DNA of 64,000 nt from a virus: the IMG/VR virus record IMGVR_UViG_3300050119_000088, positions 1 through 64,000 of that record. One strand, 5' to 3'. Below the pieces are notes generated by a model. The model searched no databases and was not told where the DNA came from. It worked only from the letters and a program-made list of their open reading frames with translations. Below, piece by piece: positions 16,089 through 63,666 of the stretch (its first letter is position 1; each line of letters starts with the position of its first letter). A program made the translations under genes and the position numbers.

Positions 16089-16363
16089 ACATACTCCATA
16101 GATTTGCGTGCAAGAATACGTCGCAAAGGTTCCGGTACTTGGGAAATATGAATCTTCAGAGTTGCCTCTTCATCTGGTGTGTAGTATCTTTGGATTTCTT
16201 TTGTTTCTTGATCGTAGTAATCAATATTGTACCAACCGTTAGAATCACCGCAACTGATGATTCCGAACAACAATTCAATGGGTGCTGAACGTACAAATTC
16301 GTTTTTGAAGATGAAGATAACAATGTCGCCCATTGACAATTCGTTCTTACTCATGTCAAGCAT
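16085..16363 (-). CDS. Unknown protein with hairpin leader
   Basis: 92 residues from MLDMSKNELSMGDIVIFIFK. DIVIFIFKNEFVRSAPIELL then NGWYNIDYYDQETKEIQRYY reads as a small beta barrel. AAGGAATC precedes the ATG and the 28-bp hairpin at 16376-16436 ends 12 bases before it. Confidence 0.55.
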   Translation of the reverse strand: MLDMSKNELSMGDIVIFIFKNEFVRSAPIELLFGIISCGDSNGWYNIDYYDQETKEIQRYYTPDEEATLKIHISQVPEPLRRILARKSMEYV

Positions 16364-16375
16364 ATTTGATTCCTT

Positions 16376-16436
16376 ATAAGGGTGAGGTATATTCGGGCTT
16401 CTCAACGAGAGAAGCCCGAATATACCTCACCCTTAT
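16376..16436 (-). promoter_or_regulatory. 28-bp perfect hairpin in leader
   Basis: Arms 16376-16403 and 16409-16436 are exactly complementary around a 5-base loop. The hairpin lies between the 50-residue gene and the gene at 16363, so it could separate their expression or be an RNase III site. The adjacent T-tract is too weak for an ordinary terminator. Confidence 0.75.
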
Positions 16437-16448
16437 TCCAAGTTGTAA

Positions 16449-16704: not shown

Positions 16705-16757
16705 AGCCACCTCTCGGAATCGAACCCTGTCCGTCGCTCCCAATTGAGCAAGGTGCC
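16705..16757 (-). tRNA. tRNA-like sequence without anticodon arm
   Basis: Acceptor strands GGCACCT and AGGTGGC (one mismatch), D-arm GCTCAATTGGGAGC and T-loop GGTTCGATTCC are present, but only a few bases lie where the 17-base anticodon arm should be, and the T-stem is disturbed. It begins at the stop codon of the LAGLIDADG gene. Most likely a tRNA remnant. Confidence 0.5.
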
Positions 16758-17184: not shown

Positions 17185-17257
17185 AGGTCCGGGTGAGGGT
17201 CGAACTCACAACCTGTCGATTACAAATCGACGACTCTGCCAATTGAGCTACCGGACC
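17185..17257 (-). tRNA. tRNA-Thr (anticodon TGT)
   Basis: Full cloverleaf: acceptor GGTCCGG/CCGGACC, D-arm GCTCAATTGGCAGAG, anticodon arm GTCGA-TTTGTAA-TCGAC, T-arm GTGAG-TTCGACC-CTCAC. No encoded CCA. The only regular tRNA in the window. Confidence 0.93.
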
Positions 17258-17259
17258 AA

Positions 17260-17288
17260 CGGTGCTCTGCCAATTGAGCTAAGGTGAC
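17260..17288 (-). tRNA. tRNA 5'-half fragment
   Basis: The minus strand has an acceptor-like start then TTAGCTCAATTGGCAGAGCA, the 5' half of a tRNA through the D-arm. It then runs directly into tRNA-Thr. Probably a remnant left by recombination between tRNA genes. Confidence 0.5.
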
Positions 17289-23145: not shown

Positions 23146-23176
23146 GATATCTCCGGTTGTTGGTTAGTAACTAAAT

Positions 23177-23241
23177 GTTAAGTGTGGAATCGAACCACAA
23201 TCGCTAGGGTTCCCTAGTGCTCGACCGTTGAGCTACTTAAC
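23177..23241 (-). tRNA. tRNA-like sequence with shortened anticodon arm
   Basis: Acceptor GTTAAGT/ACTTAAC, D-arm GCTCAACGGTCGAGC and T-arm TGTGG-TTCGATT-CCACA are perfect. The anticodon arm is CTAGG-GAAC-CCTAG, a 4-base loop without U33 or a readable anticodon, and total length is 65. It could not decode normally. Confidence 0.7.
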
Positions 23242-23307
23242 ACCCTTTCCCCTAATAGGTAGCCTAGGACCTACTAGAGTTCTGTAACATATGCGGTATG
23301 CTGTCTT

Positions 23308-43206: not shown

Positions 43207-43788
43207 TTAGACTTGATGCTCCAAAGGATCTTCCCAAGCATAGTACGAGCGGATCTCCTCCACCACGCCCGCAGCACGCTTGCACTTATCCGCCGCGTAG
43301 CCATCGAACTTCTTCTCGTCCTCTCCGAGTGCGTTGAAGAAACTCTTGACACCGATCATGATCTTGACAAGCGAGCCTTGACGAAGCTCGGCGCTCAGGT
43401 CGAACGTTCCCTCTCCGAGTGCCTTGCTGATTCGAACAAATCGTTGGTCAACTTCCAATGGCGGCTCAACGATCTGTTCGGGCTCGATGATCTGTTCGGG
43501 CTCAACGATCTGTTCGGGCTCGATAATTGGTTCGGGCTCGATGATCTGTTCGGGCTCGATGATCTGTTCGGCCACGAACACTGGAAGCACGATGCCCGGT
43601 TCGATTGTTGCAAGCAGCGATTTGAGACCTTCATTGATATATTCGACGGCATCGACGTACTGCGGCCCAACGAATGTCGTCATTCGTTGTTGCAGAAACG
43701 CGACCTGTTCTGCCGGGCTGAACTTGTCAAGATCCTTATGGACCTTGGCAAGCCGTTCCTGAACAGTCAATGGTGTTCCTCGTGGCAT
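43207..43788 (-). CDS. Unknown protein with EQIIEP repeats
   Basis: 193 residues. N-terminal helical region (QERLAKVHKDLDKFSPAEQV), then six tandem EQIIEP-type units (about 72-110) and a helical C-terminal half (VKIMIGVKSFFNALGEDEKK). The repeats are 18-bp DNA units at about 43455-43575. GAGGAAGCC precedes the ATG. A spacer or protein-interaction arm is likely. Confidence 0.65.
   Translation of the reverse strand: MPRGTPLTVQERLAKVHKDLDKFSPAEQVAFLQQRMTTFVGPQYVDAVEYINEGLKSLLATIEPGIVLPVFVAEQIIEPEQIIEPEPIIEPEQIVEPEQIIEPEQIVEPPLEVDQRFVRISKALGEGTFDLSAELRQGSLVKIMIGVKSFFNALGEDEKKFDGYAADKCKRAAGVVEEIRSYYAWEDPLEHQV
43455..43575 (-). repeat. 18-bp tandem coding repeat
   Basis: Units such as GGCTCGATGATCTGTTCG on the plus strand, at least six copies with single-base changes, encoding EQIIEP variants. 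Copy number is likely to vary. Confidence 0.8.
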
Positions 43789-56683: not shown

Positions 56684-57130
56684 TTACTTCCCTTGTCTAT
56701 TCAATTCAGCCATCTCTAAGCAAATAATTCTTCTGAGTTGTTTTGCACTTTCTGTCAAAGGCATGTTAGATGTACTTGTACATTTAGTAAGAAATTCAAG
56801 CATCAATTCTGCTTGGGCGTGTTTTATAATAAGATAAGGCAACAGTGCTTCAAGAAACGGTTGTATTTGATTAACTTGTAATACCCAAGTATACGCTGTT
56901 TTATAATTTTCCTTGTCTCTTAGCTTAGAGCCAATGCTACCTAATCCTGTTTTCTTTTGTAACCAATCTACTACCGGCTTATATGTATTCGTTACAGATA
57001 CATGAAGCCCATAAGTATAGTCGAGGTACTCTTTACCTCGACGCTTCTTATGTTGGTAAACGGAAATTGAGCCTTCACCGTCAACAATACCAGCGATATA
57101 TGAAAGCTGGATTGGTGTAAGCAATTTCAA
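56684..57130 (-). CDS. LAGLIDADG homing endonuclease
   Basis: 148 residues from a TTG overlapping the helicase stop (TTGA). LSYIAGIVDGEGSISVYQHK is the catalytic motif; WLQKKTGLGSIGSKLRDKEN and LPYLIIKHAQAELMLEFLTK follow. MAELNRQGK is the same ending as in 13260 and 16757. Confidence 0.88.
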   Translation of the reverse strand: MKLLTPIQLSYIAGIVDGEGSISVYQHKKRRGKEYLDYTYGLHVSVTNTYKPVVDWLQKKTGLGSIGSKLRDKENYKTAYTWVLQVNQIQPFLEALLPYLIIKHAQAELMLEFLTKCTSTSNMPLTESAKQLRRIICLEMAELNRQGK

Positions 57131-59100
57131 TATTGTCGCTCCGCATGGGCATTAATAATAGACTCTCTGAACAAACCGAGACTCATATCTTGCAACTTTC
57201 TCTTCTTCTTCAGATTCTCGATAATGAGTGCATCGGACGGAAGATGGACTGCATCGATGATTGTGAGACCTTTATTAATATCCATGCCAATGCGGTGAGC
57301 GCGGTCTTCTGACTGCACACGAGACTCAGCGTTGAAGTCGTTGGAGTAATAATATTCTGTTGGTGATTCTGTGAGTGTAAGCCCAAGACCCCCTGATGCA
57401 GGGTGTGCAACGAAATTGATCTTGGCAATCTGTCGCGTCTTGTCCTGGAAAAGTTCAAGCATCTCCGATCCGCGTCGTCCATCAAGAATACCTGATCCCT
57501 TCCAACCGCGACCATCTACTCGAATGGTTTCCCATCCAAGCTTCTTGGAAGCCGCCACAATACGATCAATAGAACCTTTGAATCCAGCGAAAGTCACGAA
57601 CCGACCAACATCTTCATGTTGGTCGAGAAGTTCGAGGAGGAAATCCTCTTTTGGACAAGGAACCTGAATGGCTTCTCGTTTGTATGCGGTGACAAAGCCA
57701 TCTCCACCACAATTCGGACAAGTGATCTCCGCATCGGTGAAAACGTCTTCAGTGAGAACATCGGCTTTTGGCAATCGGAACAGATCACCAATCTCGACGC
57801 CGTAGCCTGAATATTGGTCGATATTCTCTGACGTGATCTCAATCTCATCTTCGACAAGCATCTTGTGCGTGATGGTCTTGTTGCCATCACAAAGCGGGCA
57901 TGGCTTGTCACCGACTTCTTCATCAACATATTGAAAACCATCACTCAGCTCCCGCAGGAGTGTCATTGCCGAGATCGTATTCTTGGCCGATGCCACAATG
58001 ATCTTGGCAGCGTTCAGTGTGGCTCTGCTTGGTGCAAGCTCAATCTGTTTGTAAATCTTGTCTGGCAGATCAAGACAATCCTTTTTGAACTTGACTGTGA
58101 CCAATCCCTTCATACGCTCATACAGATAGGACACTTCATTGATTGAGGGAATCCAACTATGAGCATCTGCATGAGTAGAGAGAACTTTTGCCATTGGCCC
58201 ATGAACATCATCAGACTTGAGCTTACCACAGATACCACACTTCTCGGTATTGTCAAGCCAAGTGACAAGTTGAGGATACTTGCCACCGGAAACTGCGTCC
58301 TTCATAACAATCAGTGCAAGTCGCTTCTTGAACTTCTGAGGAGTGCCCTCTTTGAGAAAGCCAGGCTGTGCAACCTCACACTGATGCCACCAATCTCCAG
58401 GATCTTTCGGTGCTGGCGATCCGCTCATTTCGATTACATAGCCATTGTAACCGTACTCAGCTCGAACGGAATCAGCAAGATGCCTTGCAGCAACGGATCT
58501 CTGAGCCATTGGATTCTTGATCCGGCTTGATTCGTCGAAGATAACACCTTGTGGTGCCGGTTTCCCAACAGGCCAGTTCTCGACAATCTTCTTCAAGCCC
58601 TCGTAAGTGCAGAATGTCGGCTTGATCCGACAGCCCCACTTCTTCATCTCCAATTGAGCCGCGAAAAGAGCGCTCTTGGGAGCCACCCAGAACCAATCCG
58701 TGATGCCTGAATGCTCCATCACTTCGATTGCGGCAAGCGTCTTTCCGACGCCCATCTCTGCCGCCATGATATTGTAGTGATAGGTCAAAGCATCAACAAC
58801 CAGATCGATCTGGTGCTTGTAAAGCGACCGGGTCGGCTGGTAGTCGGCGATCTTCGGTCTATCGAACCAAGCGTAAGGGTTCTGTCCGCCCAAGAATGAG
58901 AGTTGAAATCGATTCCTATAAGTATCCTTAATCGTCCAAGATTTGTCGTCTGGATTCCAGCGAGCACCTTCGAAGGATTTGACTTCCTCAATCAGCTTCT
59001 TGTTGAAGCCGAATTTGAGTGTGATATTCTTTGTGTCCGAAGTGATTGTGGCGGGATAAAGAAGTGAATTGGCCATCAATTTGGTTGGGAGCATGAACAT
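57127..59100 (-). CDS. SNF2/superfamily-2 helicase with zinc inserts
   Basis: 657 residues. WNPDDKSWTI at the N-terminus resembles HARP-type domains. AAEMGVGKTLAAIEVM is motif I, QGVIFDESSRIKNP motif II, EMSGSPAPKDP motif III, and QSEDRAHRIGM motif VI. CGICGKLK and CPLCDGN...CPNCGGDG are two zinc-binding inserts. It probably remodels replication forks or displaces proteins from DNA. The start has AGGATTGATC upstream. Confidence 0.9.
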   Translation of the reverse strand: MFMLPTKLMANSLLYPATITSDTKNITLKFGFNKKLIEEVKSFEGARWNPDDKSWTIKDTYRNRFQLSFLGGQNPYAWFDRPKIADYQPTRSLYKHQIDLVVDALTYHYNIMAAEMGVGKTLAAIEVMEHSGITDWFWVAPKSALFAAQLEMKKWGCRIKPTFCTYEGLKKIVENWPVGKPAPQGVIFDESSRIKNPMAQRSVAARHLADSVRAEYGYNGYVIEMSGSPAPKDPGDWWHQCEVAQPGFLKEGTPQKFKKRLALIVMKDAVSGGKYPQLVTWLDNTEKCGICGKLKSDDVHGPMAKVLSTHADAHSWIPSINEVSYLYERMKGLVTVKFKKDCLDLPDKIYKQIELAPSRATLNAAKIIVASAKNTISAMTLLRELSDGFQYVDEEVGDKPCPLCDGNKTITHKMLVEDEIEITSENIDQYSGYGVEIGDLFRLPKADVLTEDVFTDAEITCPNCGGDGFVTAYKREAIQVPCPKEDFLLELLDQHEDVGRFVTFAGFKGSIDRIVAASKKLGWETIRVDGRGWKGSGILDGRRGSEMLELFQDKTRQIAKINFVAHPASGGLGLTLTESPTEYYYSNDFNAESRVQSEDRAHRIGMDINKGLTIIDAVHLPSDALIIENLKKKRKLQDMSLGLFRESIINAHAERQY

Positions 59101-59149
59101 GATCAATCCTCGAAAGCTGCAAGCAGCTTGGGTGACTTGCTTTCGCAAG

Positions 59150-60076: not shown

Positions 60077-60101
60077 CTTTGCTCTGGTAGATAAATGATA
60101 A

Positions 60102-60165
60102 CCCCGAGCTGGGATAAATCCCCATGTATTGCTTTGTACAAGCAATATCACTGCTCCACTCGGGG
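60102..60165 (-). tRNA. tRNA-like sequence with shortened T-arm
   Basis: Acceptor CCCCGAG/CTCGGGG is perfect. The anticodon-arm-like TTGCT-TGTACAA-AGCAA has a 7-base loop without U33. The T-arm position holds GGGA-TTTA-TCCC, only a 4-base loop, and the D-arm is minimal. 64 bases in all. Confidence 0.5.
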
Positions 60166-60182
60166 GTAACTTTCCAACGTAT

Positions 60183-60272
60183 ACGATTGAAAATTACGCC
60201 AGGACAATGGCGTCTTGTTATGAATCGCGGAGACCCAACGTCCGCGTCCATTTCTCAATGTGGATTACTGGC
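60183..60272 (-). ncRNA. Cloverleaf-like RNA without D-arm
   Basis: A closing stem of about 9 bp (near 60272 and 60190), CGCGGA/TCCGCG and ACGCCA/TGGCGT arms. Acceptor-, anticodon- and T-arm-like positions but no tRNA consensus bases. Structure seen by eye only. Confidence 0.35.
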
Positions 60273-60325
60273 TTCTGGTTCCAAGCATCCACAATCGAGA
60301 GAACAATAGTTGCTCTTGCGAATCA

Positions 60326-60409
60326 ACTATCTTGTATGTGTGTTACTTCGATTACTCGAAGCGCTACACAAAACAACTTCCGAGTAGCCAGACACTACTC
60401 ATCCATAAC
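60326..60409 (-). ncRNA. Second cloverleaf-like RNA
   Basis: Closing CTTGTTATG/CATACAAG, an arm GAGTAG-TGTCTGG-CTACTC with a 7-base loop, and CTTCGA-GTAA-TCGAAG. It resembles a tRNA in layout only. Confidence 0.3.
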
Positions 60410-60411
60410 AA

Positions 60412-60482
60412 GAGCCCTACACCTAGGATTCGAACCTAGCCGATTAACGTCGCGAAACATTAATCGTTTCCTGAAGAGTAGG
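60412..60482 (-). tRNA. tRNA-like sequence with abnormal core
   Basis: T-arm CTAGG-TTCGAAT-CCTAG is canonical and the acceptor CCTACTC/GTGTAGG pairs 6 of 7. The rest is one 10-bp hairpin (CGATTAATGT/ACGTTAATCG) without a D-arm or 7-base anticodon loop. Confidence 0.55.
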
Positions 60483-60559
60483 TAAATCCTGATTGAGTAT
60501 TTGCTTCTAAGAAGCAAATAACGAACCATCTTACAAGGACGACTCTCCCAACCAGGAGC

Positions 60560-60760
60560 GGGCAGAGATGGAATCGAACCACCGACCACAGAAACATTGA
60601 TTGGTAGAATGAAGCGGTGGGATTTGAACCCACGATCAGCGTGAGTTTTGCCAACCAGACTGGCACTCACGAGCTTTTGTCATGGTTCACCGTTGAGCCG
60701 CTACGGCACGCTAATTCTTACAATGATGTTTCTGTTGCTCTACCATTGAGCTATCCACCC
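60560..60760 (-). tRNA. Interrupted tRNA, halves 60725-60760 and 60560-60598
   Basis: The 5' half (GGGTGGA, D-arm GCTCAATGGTAGAGC, ACAGAAACAT) and the 3' half (ATGTTTCTGT, T-arm GGTGG-TTCGATT-CCATC, TCTGCCC) pair in both acceptor and an extended 10-bp anticodon stem. The 126 bases between them contain another tRNA-like sequence. Confidence 0.6.
60607..60717 (-). tRNA. tRNA-like sequence inside the interrupted tRNA
   Basis: T-arm GTGGG-TTCAAAT-CCCAC is canonical. TGCCA-GTCTGGT-TGGCA gives an anticodon arm with a 7-base loop (U33, anticodon CTG). The acceptor is weak (AGCG/CGCT plus GAAT/ATTC). Length 111 bases. Confidence 0.5.
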
Positions 60761-60765
60761 AAATA

Positions 60766-61148
60766 TGCCGATTGAGCAAGCCGAAGCTTCTTGAAATTTG
60801 TACAAGGTGTTCTGCCGAAGCAGTTCAGCAATGTTCAAGATTCCAAGTAATCTCTCAATCAGCCGTTTGACCTTGCGACCAAACGTCGCTACCGTCGATT
60901 CAACGATAACGATAATCAATTGGCATCCCGCACACCACAATCGGGATTAGTCTTGCACCGGCTTTACATGGTAACATATATGAGTTACCTCATATACGCT
61001 TAGCCGATTCAGATTTCAGTGATCCGATCGTAAGATCGAATACTGGAATCCTATGCCTTCCCAACTGATATCAAGTGGTAAGAAGCAACAGCTCATTTAT
61101 TGAGCCAATCCTCCGAAGAGGGTTCGCCAAAACTACTTCCCACCATCA
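60766..61148. other. Structured non-coding stretch
   Basis: One 66-codon frame (60740-60940) runs into the tRNA 5' half and is not called. A D-arm-like GCTCAATAAATGAGC (about 61091-61105) and a 12-bp hairpin near 61014-61043 suggest further tRNA-like material. Confidence 0.35.
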
Positions 61149-61245
61149 GGGATCGCTGGAATTGAACCAGTCTTTCGTCCTTGGAAAATAGATCCTCAGA
61201 GAGGCTAATTCCAAGTTCGACGTGCAGCCGTTACACCGCAATCCC
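61149..61245 (-). tRNA. tRNA-like sequence with enlarged anticodon loop
   Basis: Acceptor GGGATTG/CGATCCC, D-arm GGTGTAACGGCTGCAC and T-arm CTGG-TTCAATT-CCAG are normal. The anticodon stem CTTGG/CCAAG is extended to CTTGGAA/TTCCAAG and encloses 22 bases containing a small CCTC-TCT-GAGG hairpin. Total 97 bases against the usual 72-76. Confidence 0.65.
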
Positions 61246-61248
61246 AAA

Positions 61249-61346
61249 GGCCCAGCCAGGTTACGAGCCTGATGTGTCACTAATGATTGTATTGAGTCTA
61301 CGTCTCGTAAACACAGACTGTGCAATCATTCCGACACCGCTAGGCC
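61249..61346 (-). tRNA. Class II-like tRNA with enlarged anticodon loop
   Basis: Acceptor GGCCTAG/CTGGGCC pairs fully. GTGTCGGAATGATTGCAC resembles the D-arm of Leu/Ser tRNAs. The anticodon stem AGTCT/AGACT encloses 15 bases with an ACG-AGA-CGT hairpin. The T-loop CTCGTAA has lost T54 and A58. Confidence 0.5.
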
Positions 61347-61602
61347 ATGTAAGGGCCGGGCATAATAAGATTTACCGAATATTCTCGCATCGTAAGATGG
61401 GAGACATCCGACAGTGATCTACAAAGTGTTCCGGCCCCGCACACCGTTGAACGTTTCCGTAACGGGTACTAGTGATTACCGAAGGCCGATTTGGCAATCA
61501 CCTTCCGACTTCACAACGACTTGGCCCGTTGCTGTCATCGGAATCCACACGCCACCGATCAAGATGACGTGCAGCCGGTTCGGTCACTAAGACCGTTCCA
61601 AA
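61347..61602. other. Non-coding stretch after the tRNA-like cluster
   Basis: No gene. Contains GACGTGCAGCCG (61566-61577), the same 12 bases as at 61219-61230 in the tRNA above, and hairpins such as ATCGG/CCGAT. Probably more decayed tRNA-like sequence. Confidence 0.4.
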
Positions 61603-61866
61603 TTACGAAGGTGGAACCTGCTTGGACGGTTGAGCCGGATAGCCCATCGGCATTTGCTGGCCGGATGGCATCGGAGCTTGTCCGACCGGGCCGGTGTACG
61701 AGTACGTCAACGTCTCATACCCACTGCAAGGAGCCATTTGCATCTGACCCTTGCAAGCCTGCTTGGCTGCTCTCTTGGCGGCTTTCGCAGCCTTGTGGCA
61801 CTTGCCAGCCTCAGCCGGAAGTGACATCGCAATCAAGGCCACGAAAGCAAGTAGCATCCGAATCAT
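61603..61866 (-). CDS. Secreted Ala/Lys-rich protein
   Basis: 87 residues. MIRMLLAFVALIAMSLPAEA is a signal peptide; the mature part starts KCHKAAKAAKRAAKQACKGQ and continues Met/Pro/Gln-rich. The ATG overlaps the upstream stop (TGATG). GC-richer than the middle of the window. Could bind DNA or cell wall outside the cytoplasm. Confidence 0.65.
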   Translation of the reverse strand: MIRMLLAFVALIAMSLPAEAGKCHKAAKAAKRAAKQACKGQMQMAPCSGYETLTYSYTGPVGQAPMPSGQQMPMGYPAQPSKQVPPS

Positions 61867-62534
61867 CAGCGAGCCCTCGTACTCCCGGCCGCTTCCGGTG
61901 CCTGCTCGACCACCGTCTCGGGCGGAGAGAGAAACGTCTTGGTGACATCTGCAATCTCTCCGAGATCCGGGATCTCGAAGGGTGTCGAGCAGTCCTTGCA
62001 GACGGGTCCGTGCCACGAGTAGGAGGTGTTCTTGATGAGCTTGACGCTCAGCGAGGCCGCTTTGCCAAGCAGTGCCTTGACGTTCGGGGCTTCTCGCCGG
62101 GCTGTCTTCGAGCCCATCAGGAAGGTCGCGAACTTCTGGACCTTGGGAAGGTAGACGAGGTACTCTGGTCCGTACATGCACCCCGAATTCGGCTGGTCAG
62201 CTCGCTCTTGAAGCTTCTGAAAAGCGGGCGAGTCGGGATTGTGATAAGCGACGACCGGATCGGAGCCCGTATCGATCGCCTTCGGACGCCACTGAATCAC
62301 CAACACGTCCACTTCCGCTCCGAGATCGATCACGTCCTTGTCCTTGACAAGTCCGTAGTGACCCATTGGGAAGGTTCCCTCCTTCACCGCATCGGAATTG
62401 CTTCCGAAAAGCTGAAGTCGAGGAAGGTAGTTGGCAGCGGCGGCAATCTTGGCGAACGCCTTCTCGTCATACGGATTCGCCGCGACGGGAATCAGTGCTC
62501 CAGGAGCAGCAACCGGCTCGATGTCAGACATCAT
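61866..62534 (-). CDS. Conserved unknown protein, possibly ssDNA-binding
   Basis: 222 residues, MMSDIEPVAAPGALIPVAAN. NYLPRLQLFGSNSDAVKEGT, VDVLVIQWRPKAIDTGSDPV and KFATFLMGSKTARREAPNVK look like a beta-rich core. CKDCSTPFEIPD contains CxxC. I believe similar proteins occur in other phages, but the function is unknown; ssDNA binding is a guess from context. GAGGAAC precedes the ATG. Confidence 0.55.
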   Translation of the reverse strand: MMSDIEPVAAPGALIPVAANPYDEKAFAKIAAAANYLPRLQLFGSNSDAVKEGTFPMGHYGLVKDKDVIDLGAEVDVLVIQWRPKAIDTGSDPVVAYHNPDSPAFQKLQERADQPNSGCMYGPEYLVYLPKVQKFATFLMGSKTARREAPNVKALLGKAASLSVKLIKNTSYSWHGPVCKDCSTPFEIPDLGEIADVTKTFLSPPETVVEQAPEAAGSTRAR

Positions 62535-62600
62535 GTTCCTCAATGAAAATGATCATGAAAAGCGGCTGGCCCACCATTGAACCAGCCTTCCCCTGTTGGA

Positions 62601-63566
62601 TCAGGCCGTCACGAGATCGGCCTTCGTCTCGGCCGCAGCGTTCGCCTTCGCGGCCTCACGATCCGCCTTACGTTGAGCCTTGACCTCTTCATCCTTCTTG
62701 CGTCGGTCGGCGTCCTTCTGGCGATCCGCTTCGATGGACATCGAATCCATATGAAGCGTCCAGGCAACGCCCGTCTTGAACCCTTCGAGAGCCGTTGTCA
62801 GTCCGAGTTCGGCGACCAGTCGCGGGCCGACCTCATTCTGCTCGAACTCTGTCTTGATTTCGCCAAGCTTCCGGCAGTGCGGAACCGGCATGAACTCAGC
62901 GGCGTTCGGATTCCGACCTTGACGCTTGGCGTCGCGAAGTTCTTTGACGCGGGTATTGACGGTCGGAACGAACTCGTTCGGCTGCATTGTCATCGCACGA
63001 TCGACGAAGTGTGCTTGCTCATCAGCAGGCAGCTTCGCCAAAGCGTAGGCGTTGGACAAGTTGATCTTGTCCTCATCCACCAGCTTGGCGATGCGGGCTT
63101 CGAGCTTGATTAGCCCAAGCCGTTCAGAGATCCAGGTCGGCGACTTGGCCAACTTGGTCGCCAAAGACGCAGCGGTCATGGTCGGGTTGCCCGCCAGAAT
63201 CCGCATGAGCTGCTTGCTGTACTCGACTGGCCGAGTCTCGACCTTGTGGATGTTCGTGATGATCTGGGCTTCGAGGACTTCGGCGTCGCTTGCCTCAATC
63301 ACGTTGGCCGGGATCTCAGTCAGTCCAGCGTCGAGCGCTCCGGTGAATCGGTGCAGGCCGTCGATCAAGCCGTAAGTGATGTTACCATCACTGTCCTTGA
63401 TCTCACGGACGACGACCGGATTCAGCACGCCCTTGGCCCGGATTGAATCCACCAATCCGAGGTAGTCTTCGGCCGTCTTGTTGACGTTCCGTAGAGCGGA
63501 AGGGTTCTCCCGAATCTGCGAAAGTTGGACAACTTTCGGTCGCGTCTTCGGGGTTGTACTTGCCAT
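62601..63566 (-). CDS. ParB-like protein
   Basis: 321 residues, MASTTPKTRPKVVQLSQIRE. DYLGLVDSIRAKGVLNPVVV and ITYGLIDGLHRFTGALDAGL give the N-terminal ParB fold. MTAASLATKLAKSPTWISER is the helix-turn-helix. A long charged helical end (ADRQKDADRRKKDEEVKAQR) may allow oligomerisation. AGGAGTGGCC precedes the chosen ATG. GC-rich like the ParB-like gene at 906. It is the first gene of the large minus-strand block. Confidence 0.85.
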   Translation of the reverse strand: MASTTPKTRPKVVQLSQIRENPSALRNVNKTAEDYLGLVDSIRAKGVLNPVVVREIKDSDGNITYGLIDGLHRFTGALDAGLTEIPANVIEASDAEVLEAQIITNIHKVETRPVEYSKQLMRILAGNPTMTAASLATKLAKSPTWISERLGLIKLEARIAKLVDEDKINLSNAYALAKLPADEQAHFVDRAMTMQPNEFVPTVNTRVKELRDAKRQGRNPNAAEFMPVPHCRKLGEIKTEFEQNEVGPRLVAELGLTTALEGFKTGVAWTLHMDSMSIEADRQKDADRRKKDEEVKAQRKADREAAKANAAAETKADLVTA

Positions 63567-63666
63567 ACTGGCCACTCCTAATTTGCTTACCGCAATCCTC
63601 ATTGGTTGGCGTTGAAAGGAATACGCAATCCAATCAATCGTCGAGCCCTGCTGACACTTTCACTCT

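Follow-up and report, generated by a model that had tools for sequence, protein, structure and literature searches.

Tailed phages appear to carry a widespread and selected set of tRNAs that lack the anticodon arm, accompanied by versions in which the arm is replaced, and these would act outside translation by means of the acceptor end and the elbow. We place the probability of this reading at about 0.55. An island of folded RNA in the window (i.e., the whole 64,000-base stretch analyzed, which is the 1-64000 portion of a virus record of 111,971 bases) would be a variant in which the arm serves as a mount for RNA structures, including a nested tRNA-like sequence. Judged from their sequences, the good examples retain what makes up the upper half of a tRNA with its elbow: the acceptor stem, U8, a D-arm containing GG and a T-arm containing TTCRA. 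The arm that would read the codon is either absent, closed off by a loop of 4 nt, or swapped for a larger hairpin or a nested tRNA-like element.

The question of why phages carry tRNAs has stood for fifty years, according to PMC10264068. Codon compensation and the replacement of cleaved host tRNAs cannot explain tRNAs that read no codon and are yet kept intact elsewhere by selection. Many unrelated phages carry the anticodonless form, which bears strong marks of maintenance, and thus phages seem to use tRNAs for more than codon reading.

tRNA-like elements of the window

The island is intergenic, lying on the minus strand at 60.1-61.6 kb. It sits in a 2.2-kb gap running from the gene for a 225-aa protein (62543-61866) to that for a 178-aa protein (59686-59150), which is followed by a helicase gene. 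The gene families around it are ParB, helicase and primase. The features of the window are as follows.

62601-63602, minus strand: ParB-like protein
61866-62543, minus strand: conserved protein of 225 aa, upstream of the island; synteny marker
61344-61438, minus strand: structured RNA with closing helix GGGCCGG/CCGGCCC; overlaps the 61352 element
61249-61352, minus strand: weak tRNA-like element; acceptor 5/7, nonstandard T-loop CTCGTAA, tall arm AATGATTG/CAATCATT with loop TTACGAG
61148-61245, minus strand: tRNA-like element with enlarged anticodon arm; stems CGTC/GACG then CTTGGAA/TTCCAAG, cap CCTC-TCT-GAGG
61075-61145, minus strand: structured RNA with closing helix GGTGGGAAG/CTTCTTACC
60560-60760, minus strand: outer tRNA-like element; canonical acceptor, D- and T-arms, with 153 nt instead of the anticodon arm
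60609-60705, minus strand: inner tRNA-like element, nested in the outer; perfect T-arm, acceptor GTAGCGG/CCGCTTC (6/7), weak D-arm
60414-60562, minus strand: lone perfect T-arm CTAGG-TTCGAAT-CCTAG, preceded by long hairpins; acceptor and D-arm unconvincing
60205-60412, minus strand: multi-branched structured RNA with closing helix CTTGTTATG/CATAACAAG
60100-60166, minus strand: weak tRNA-like hairpin cluster; strong acceptor-like stem CCCCGAG/CTCGGGG, degenerate T-loop
59150-59686, minus strand: conserved protein of 178 aa, downstream of the island
57127-59148, minus strand: helicase (PHROG 62)
23176-23242, minus strand: tRNA without anticodon, its anticodon stem capped as CTAGG-GAAC-CCTAG; 49.7 bits
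17185-17257, minus strand: regular tRNA-Thr(UGU), the control; 62.9 bits
16700-16758, minus strand: tRNA-like element that lacks the anticodon arm, with D-arm and T-arm 6 nt apart; its start coincides with the stop codon of the ORF upstream

A small predicted secreted protein of ~86 aa occupies 61606-61866 on the same strand, adjoining the upstream side of the island.

The window was searched with a descriptor that requires only the acceptor, D-arm and T-arm and ignores the intervening sequence. There were three strong matches: tRNA-Thr, 23242-23176 and 60760-60560. The last of these scored 18.0, compared with 19.0 for the regular tRNA-Thr and 14.5 for the best of ten shuffled windows. All seven pairs of its acceptor (GGGTGGA/TCTGCCC) are formed, and it has the D-arm GCTC-AATGGTA-GAGC and the T-arm GGTGG-TTCGATT-CCATC. 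Its insert starts and ends in a perfect 10-bp helix, ACAGAAACAT/ATGTTTCTGT, at the position of the anticodon stem (P ≤ 0.0005 against shuffles), and within the insert lies a second perfect T-arm, GTGGG-TTCAAAT-CCCAC (60633-60617). This belongs to the inner tRNA-like element, which carries the loop GTCTGGT atop a lengthened stem and reached 15.8 bits with the Rfam tRNA model (E = 0.11). The same T-arm is the site of the window's only match to tmRNA (RF00023), which covers 18 nt and includes no tag region.

The element at 61245-61148 gave 24.0 bits with the Rfam tRNA model (E = 5.8e-4 for the whole genome), below the cut-off of 29. Its enlarged arm folds with z = −3.5, and its T-stem of 4 bp makes the division between acceptor and T-stem nearer to 7/4. 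The tRNA at 23242-23176 (ARAGORN/Rfam match at about 23174-23243) lies above the Rfam tRNA cut-off and has no proper anticodon, because its perfect 5-bp anticodon stem is closed by a 4-nt GAAC loop. Neither 60760-60560 as a whole nor 16758-16700 was reported in the tRNA (RF00005) search. The latter retains acceptor-like and D-arms, and is degenerate with a poor T-stem (3/5). At 61352-61249 the closing-helix test of the insert was negative, and the fold gave z = −2.3.

A 7-bp acceptor together with D- and T-arms is therefore found in 60760-60560 and 23242-23176, in part in 61245-61148, and in none of the other island elements. We conclude that three abnormal tRNA-like elements in the window (60760-60560, 61245-61148 and 23242-23176) exclude chance, and that the others are suggestive. 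The sequence-only reading had counted at least six in the island, with inserted hairpins at 61149 and 61249 and recurrence at 16705 and 23177. The outer nested element and 61149 are robust, as is 23177; the element at 61249 is weak, as are 60562-60414 and 60166-60100, and 16705 is degenerate. That reading was right that tRNA-Thr at 17185 is regular, this being the sole element of the window with a 5-bp anticodon stem and a 7-nt loop. Abutting the 5′ end of tRNA-Thr is a 5′ half tRNA (17258-17286, minus strand) made up of an acceptor strand and D-arm, CACCTTAGCTCAATTGGCAGAGCACCGTT.

Properties of the island as a whole were less informative. Sliding-window folding gave a mean z of −1.65 for the island and −0.94 for the rest of the window (p = 0.03); since this excess is slight, we give it no weight as support. 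The strongest fold of the window is found elsewhere, a very long perfect hairpin (~28 bp, z −13) between ORFs at 16321-16440. Terminator-like hairpins number 8 against 2.6 expected, as is to be expected of hairpin-rich DNA, and no sigma-70 promoters were found, fewer than in shuffles. A search of the window against Rfam returned nothing above gathering score but tRNA-Thr, and no known large RNA (GOLLD, ROOL). A weak Rfam tRNA match at position 66342 of the record is at chance level and falls within a primase-like ORF, and was rejected. A T-arm scan also turned up a tandem 18-nt repeat resembling ATCTGTTCGGGCTCGATG, within a reading frame at about 43454-43561. Judged by sequence, there is an even chance that the island encodes RNAs that derive from tRNAs and do not decode, with other structured RNAs beside them, all in the orientation of the flanking genes.

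Anticodonless tRNAs of phages

We scanned IMG/VR with the pattern GCTCA-N5-9-GAGC-N6-19-GGTTCRANTCC, in which the D-arm and T-arm are too close for an anticodon arm. Among the 122 viral matches listed, 69 pass a filter of ≥6 of 7 acceptor pairs and ≥4 of 5 T-stem pairs, while a simple pairing estimate puts the chance pass rate of this filter at ~1%. Removal of near-duplicates left at least 46 non-redundant tRNAs of 56-66 nt. Our scans covered D-arms of the GCTC/GAGC type, so that these counts are lower bounds. By the same kind of scan of 11.3 million cellular contigs, 7 of the 119 matches listed pass, at least 3 of them ordinary Thr-type tRNAs. Cellular matches to the short pattern were discounted, most being normal Thr-type tRNAs with an anticodon stem that resembles a D-arm.

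The acceptors of the 46 tRNAs have a mean of 6.80 pairs out of 7, compared with 3.16 ± 0.19 when partners are exchanged. In an alignment of 30, 98.5% of pair cells hold standard pairs, a percentage inflated by the filter's requirement for paired acceptors, which leaves the passing fraction unaffected. Covariation was 0.777 in this alignment against 0.162 when shuffled, with double-sided changes in 146 cells versus 41.7 in shuffles and all seven acceptor pairs included. At 11 of 15 anticodonless loci there was a match over the Rfam tRNA cut-off at the site, or one of 37-56 bits. The recurrence of this tRNA in many viral contigs with strong covariation indicates a maintained RNA rather than debris.

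These tRNAs often precede terminase genes. Their neighbors include the large terminase (9 loci), the small terminase (8 loci), an HNH nuclease, and a late transcription regulator that ends ~70 nt upstream of the tRNA (8 loci); no recurrent integrase cluster was found among the neighboring genes. One anticodonless tRNA is 97%-99% conserved between the Lactobacillus phages Lb, LBR48 and 3-SAC12. It is unannotated in the first two, and in 3-SAC12 is called tRNA-OTHER, a pseudogene. A non-decoding role is directly testable in these isolated phages. The open-access literature, with subscription papers lying outside it, gave no account of anticodonless tRNAs as a recurrent, covarying class in phages.

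The alanine identity pair G3:U70 occurs in 8 of the 46 and in 10 of 168 controls, which are normal viral tRNAs matched by seed (p = 0.03); all ten of those controls are tRNA-Ala. This small and weak excess is a hint that a subset of anticodonless tRNAs could be charged. G3:U70 is absent from the elements of the window.

The sequence data make it highly probable that the class consists of selected, non-decoding derivatives of tRNA, and the elements of the window probably belong to it.

Related viruses and enlarged anticodon arms

The 225-aa protein is present in 69 viral loci, in nearly all of which the order primase, ParB, 225-aa protein, 178-aa protein, helicase is strict; it was not found in cellular genomes. 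Among these relatives, RNA genes are concentrated in the two gaps that flank the 178-aa gene. Normal tRNAs occur there (Glu, Gln, Leu, Ile, Met and Arg), and in two loci a tmRNA gene lies in the same gap next to tRNA-Gln (L013 7056-7385; L026 7338-7662). There were no relatives of the island at the DNA level among phages and plasmids, nor any close relatives of the window's virus among viral contigs when sought through the 178-aa protein and DNA polymerase.

Two small structured RNAs are conserved in one subclade of the relatives.

R1: L010 9196, L012 7419, L013 6865, L026 7177
R2: L012 7627, L013 6983 and 7391, L026 7257

The start of R1 falls on the stop codon of the 178-aa gene; its 3′ end is mostly CCA. 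Among the loci examined it is confined to that subclade, and its core motif occurs in the window no more than by chance. Another RNA of 120 nt, t2 (L014 8776-8894, L015 8780-8900), has tRNA-like ends and the T-loop TTAGAAT; its 29 pairs include 5 compensatory changes between the two loci and none broken.

Comparison with related phages, proposed in the sequence-only reading, did reveal some odd-armed tRNA-like elements in the clade. The distance from D-stem to T-stem, normally 22-23 nt, is 13 nt in L018, 16 nt in L085 and 28 nt in L015, and in L054/L103 a tRNA of 50.5 bits has 63 nt. The pattern therefore extends beyond the window.

A second viral scan, with a D-arm to T-arm distance of 48-77, gave at least 120 stretches, about 70 of them with good acceptors and T-stems. 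Twenty-two of the 69 analyzed are canonical tRNAs interrupted by an insert. In 14, removing 25-51 nt after nt 28/29 leaves a 7-nt loop on a perfect stem of 5 bp (0.03 expected), and in 8 the insert is in the loop and its removal restores the arm (0.12 expected). The motif CWGCAA is found in 9 of the 14, versus 6 of the 55 others. Among the remaining 47, the anticodon-stem position is closed by a helix of 5 bp or more in 15, compared with 5.3 expected, and the group folds better than shuffles (z −1.17 ± 0.29).

The loops of the window's elements had been suggested to be processed. However, no single excision from the enlarged elements gave a convincing canonical arm (61249, p = 0.5; outer 60760, p = 0.19; inner, p = 0.8), and at 61148 the arm was restored only by an implausible join (p = 0.013). 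From their sequences, the enlarged elements of the window would belong with the 47 that inserts do not explain.

The inserts of other viruses after nt 28/29 or in the loop are candidate mini-introns, many having a hairpin followed by CAGCAA or CTGCAA. To our knowledge, introns in bacterial and phage tRNAs are otherwise of group I or II and far larger. Possible mini-introns are found in L226, L234, L240, L255, L256, L264, L275, L290, L293, L303, L312, L326 and L331, and further in L241, L243, L266, L276, L288 and L309. An isolated cyanophage, Synechococcus phage B23, has a tRNA-OTHER (L463 1494-1603) that resembles the L293 mini-intron tRNA. The viral tRNAs at L229 5463 and L318 2647 have in common an insert motif, CTCAnGGTGAAGGnCCnAAAnGCnGGGA, in the anticodon arm; their acceptors differ.

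Possible action and alternative explanations

The acceptor/elbow half of tRNA is all that is read by RNase P, RNase Z, the CCA-adding enzyme and EF-Tu, by some synthetases, including AlaRS, and by toxins that modify the 3′ end; anticodon nucleases read the other half. Because the half that is kept is the part read by acceptor-end enzymes, we infer that these RNAs would mature and then act as non-decoding substrates or decoys. Maturation would proceed as for other tRNAs, with RNase P, RNase Z or exonucleases, and CCA addition. The products would be unable to decode. Through their acceptor end and elbow they would most likely engage those host or defense enzymes that read only this half, either as competitive substrates or as decoys. 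Candidate targets would be acceptor-end modifying toxins, CCA enzymes, AlaRS and EF-Tu. In the window, the enlarged arms might stabilize the RNA or bear cargo, in the manner of a natural tRNA scaffold. The aminoacylation baits of the sequence-only reading, or decoys for acceptor-end enzymes, are thus possible, and we advance the decoy mechanism tentatively. Decoys for anticodon nucleases, also raised there, fit badly, since the site of cleavage, the anticodon loop, is the missing part.

Alternatively, the elbow-acceptor module might act as punctuation, marking polycistronic phage transcripts for cleavage by RNase P and RNase Z, a role for which the anticodon arm would be dispensable. The parts read by these two enzymes are indeed those kept. 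The upstream ORF is codirectional in 31 of 45 cases, many elements are located within operons, frequently immediately ahead of terminase genes, and 16758 begins at a stop codon. However, the distances to the ORFs are loose, with medians of 85 upstream and 148 downstream and few within 15 nt, and are only somewhat shorter than those of normal tRNAs in the same loci (261 and 224). Some elements are moreover clustered with normal tRNAs, which would serve equally. We consider this explanation rather doubtful.

Plain decay, in which tRNA genes acquired by phages would be deprived of the anticodon arm through deletions or insertions and linger as pseudogenes, is unlikely. The pseudogene annotation in one Lactobacillus phage fits it, as do the degenerate 16758-16700 and several degenerate elements of the island. 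So does the occupation of the same gap by normal tRNAs in relatives. Normal versions at the same places were named in the sequence-only reading as a sign of simple decay, and this is half borne out: the normal Glu and Gln tRNAs share the gap with odd RNAs and are not evident orthologues of the window's elements. Against decay stand the covariation of acceptor and T-stems in the anticodonless class, which decay does not explain, the perfect 5-bp stem of the capped arm at 23242, and the 10-bp closing helix of the outer nested tRNA. The earlier suggestion of something more systematic than random decay is thus upheld, mostly by evidence from outside the window (the 46 covarying examples, the second, enlarged class, and the relatives L018, L054, L085 and L015).

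An RNA that acts on the ribosome like tmRNA, alanylated and entering without a codon, seems improbable. AlaRS does not need the anticodon, the anticodonless class has its excess of G3:U70, and tmRNA genes occupy the same gap in L013 and L026. Like tmRNA, the window's elements have the upper half of a tRNA with the anticodon arm replaced by other RNA. They differ in having a canonical D-arm and no G3:U70; neither a resume-codon tag nor pseudoknots were recognized in the window, where the single T-arm is the full extent of the match. Least probable is the splicing of the enlarged arms as introns to yield normal decoding tRNAs; this holds for the 14 + 8 of the 69 viral tRNAs above, but single excision fails to rescue the window's enlarged elements, 61148 excepted by its implausible join, and the anticodonless forms hold nothing to restore.

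Returning to selected tRNAs that act outside translation, we may compare them with systems already described. Section 7 of PMC7609411 (citing Mukai et al., 2017) describes irregular tRNA polycistrons in forest and peat soil metatranscriptomes, which are tandem and uncharged by E. coli synthetases. The likeness is that of tandem irregular tRNAs. Allo-tRNAs, however, are defined by an acceptor domain of 12 bp divided as 8/4 or 9/3, and their anticodon is normal. The RNAs described here have no anticodon, and the division between acceptor and T-stem is 7/5 in the descriptor matches and closer to 7/4 in 61148. Phage tRNAs that evade tRNA-targeting defenses (PMC10264068; PMC11555353), where conflict shapes the anticodon region, keep a decoding anticodon with point changes, whereas the elements here are without one. 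The tRNA fragments left by integrating elements (PMC9897764) are likewise partial tRNAs in mobile elements; in our case both ends of the tRNA are present and paired, and the recurrent neighbors are terminases with no integrase cluster.

As close as the irregular polycistrons is the comparison with phage T4, whose species 1 RNA (rnaC) and species 2 RNA (rnaD) are small stable RNAs encoded by a phage, within a tRNA cluster. At its end rnaC has a perfect T-arm, CCGGG-TTCGAAT-CCCGG, together with an acceptor-like stem, and large hairpins replace the D- and anticodon arms. The window's elements, known here from sequence alone, resemble it in this architecture. RnaC differs in having no canonical D-arm, an acceptor of 5/7 and an unrelated sequence, whereas the anticodonless class has a full D-arm in ~58 nt. 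The anticodonless tRNAs nevertheless offer a reading for the long-unexplained RNA C of T4.
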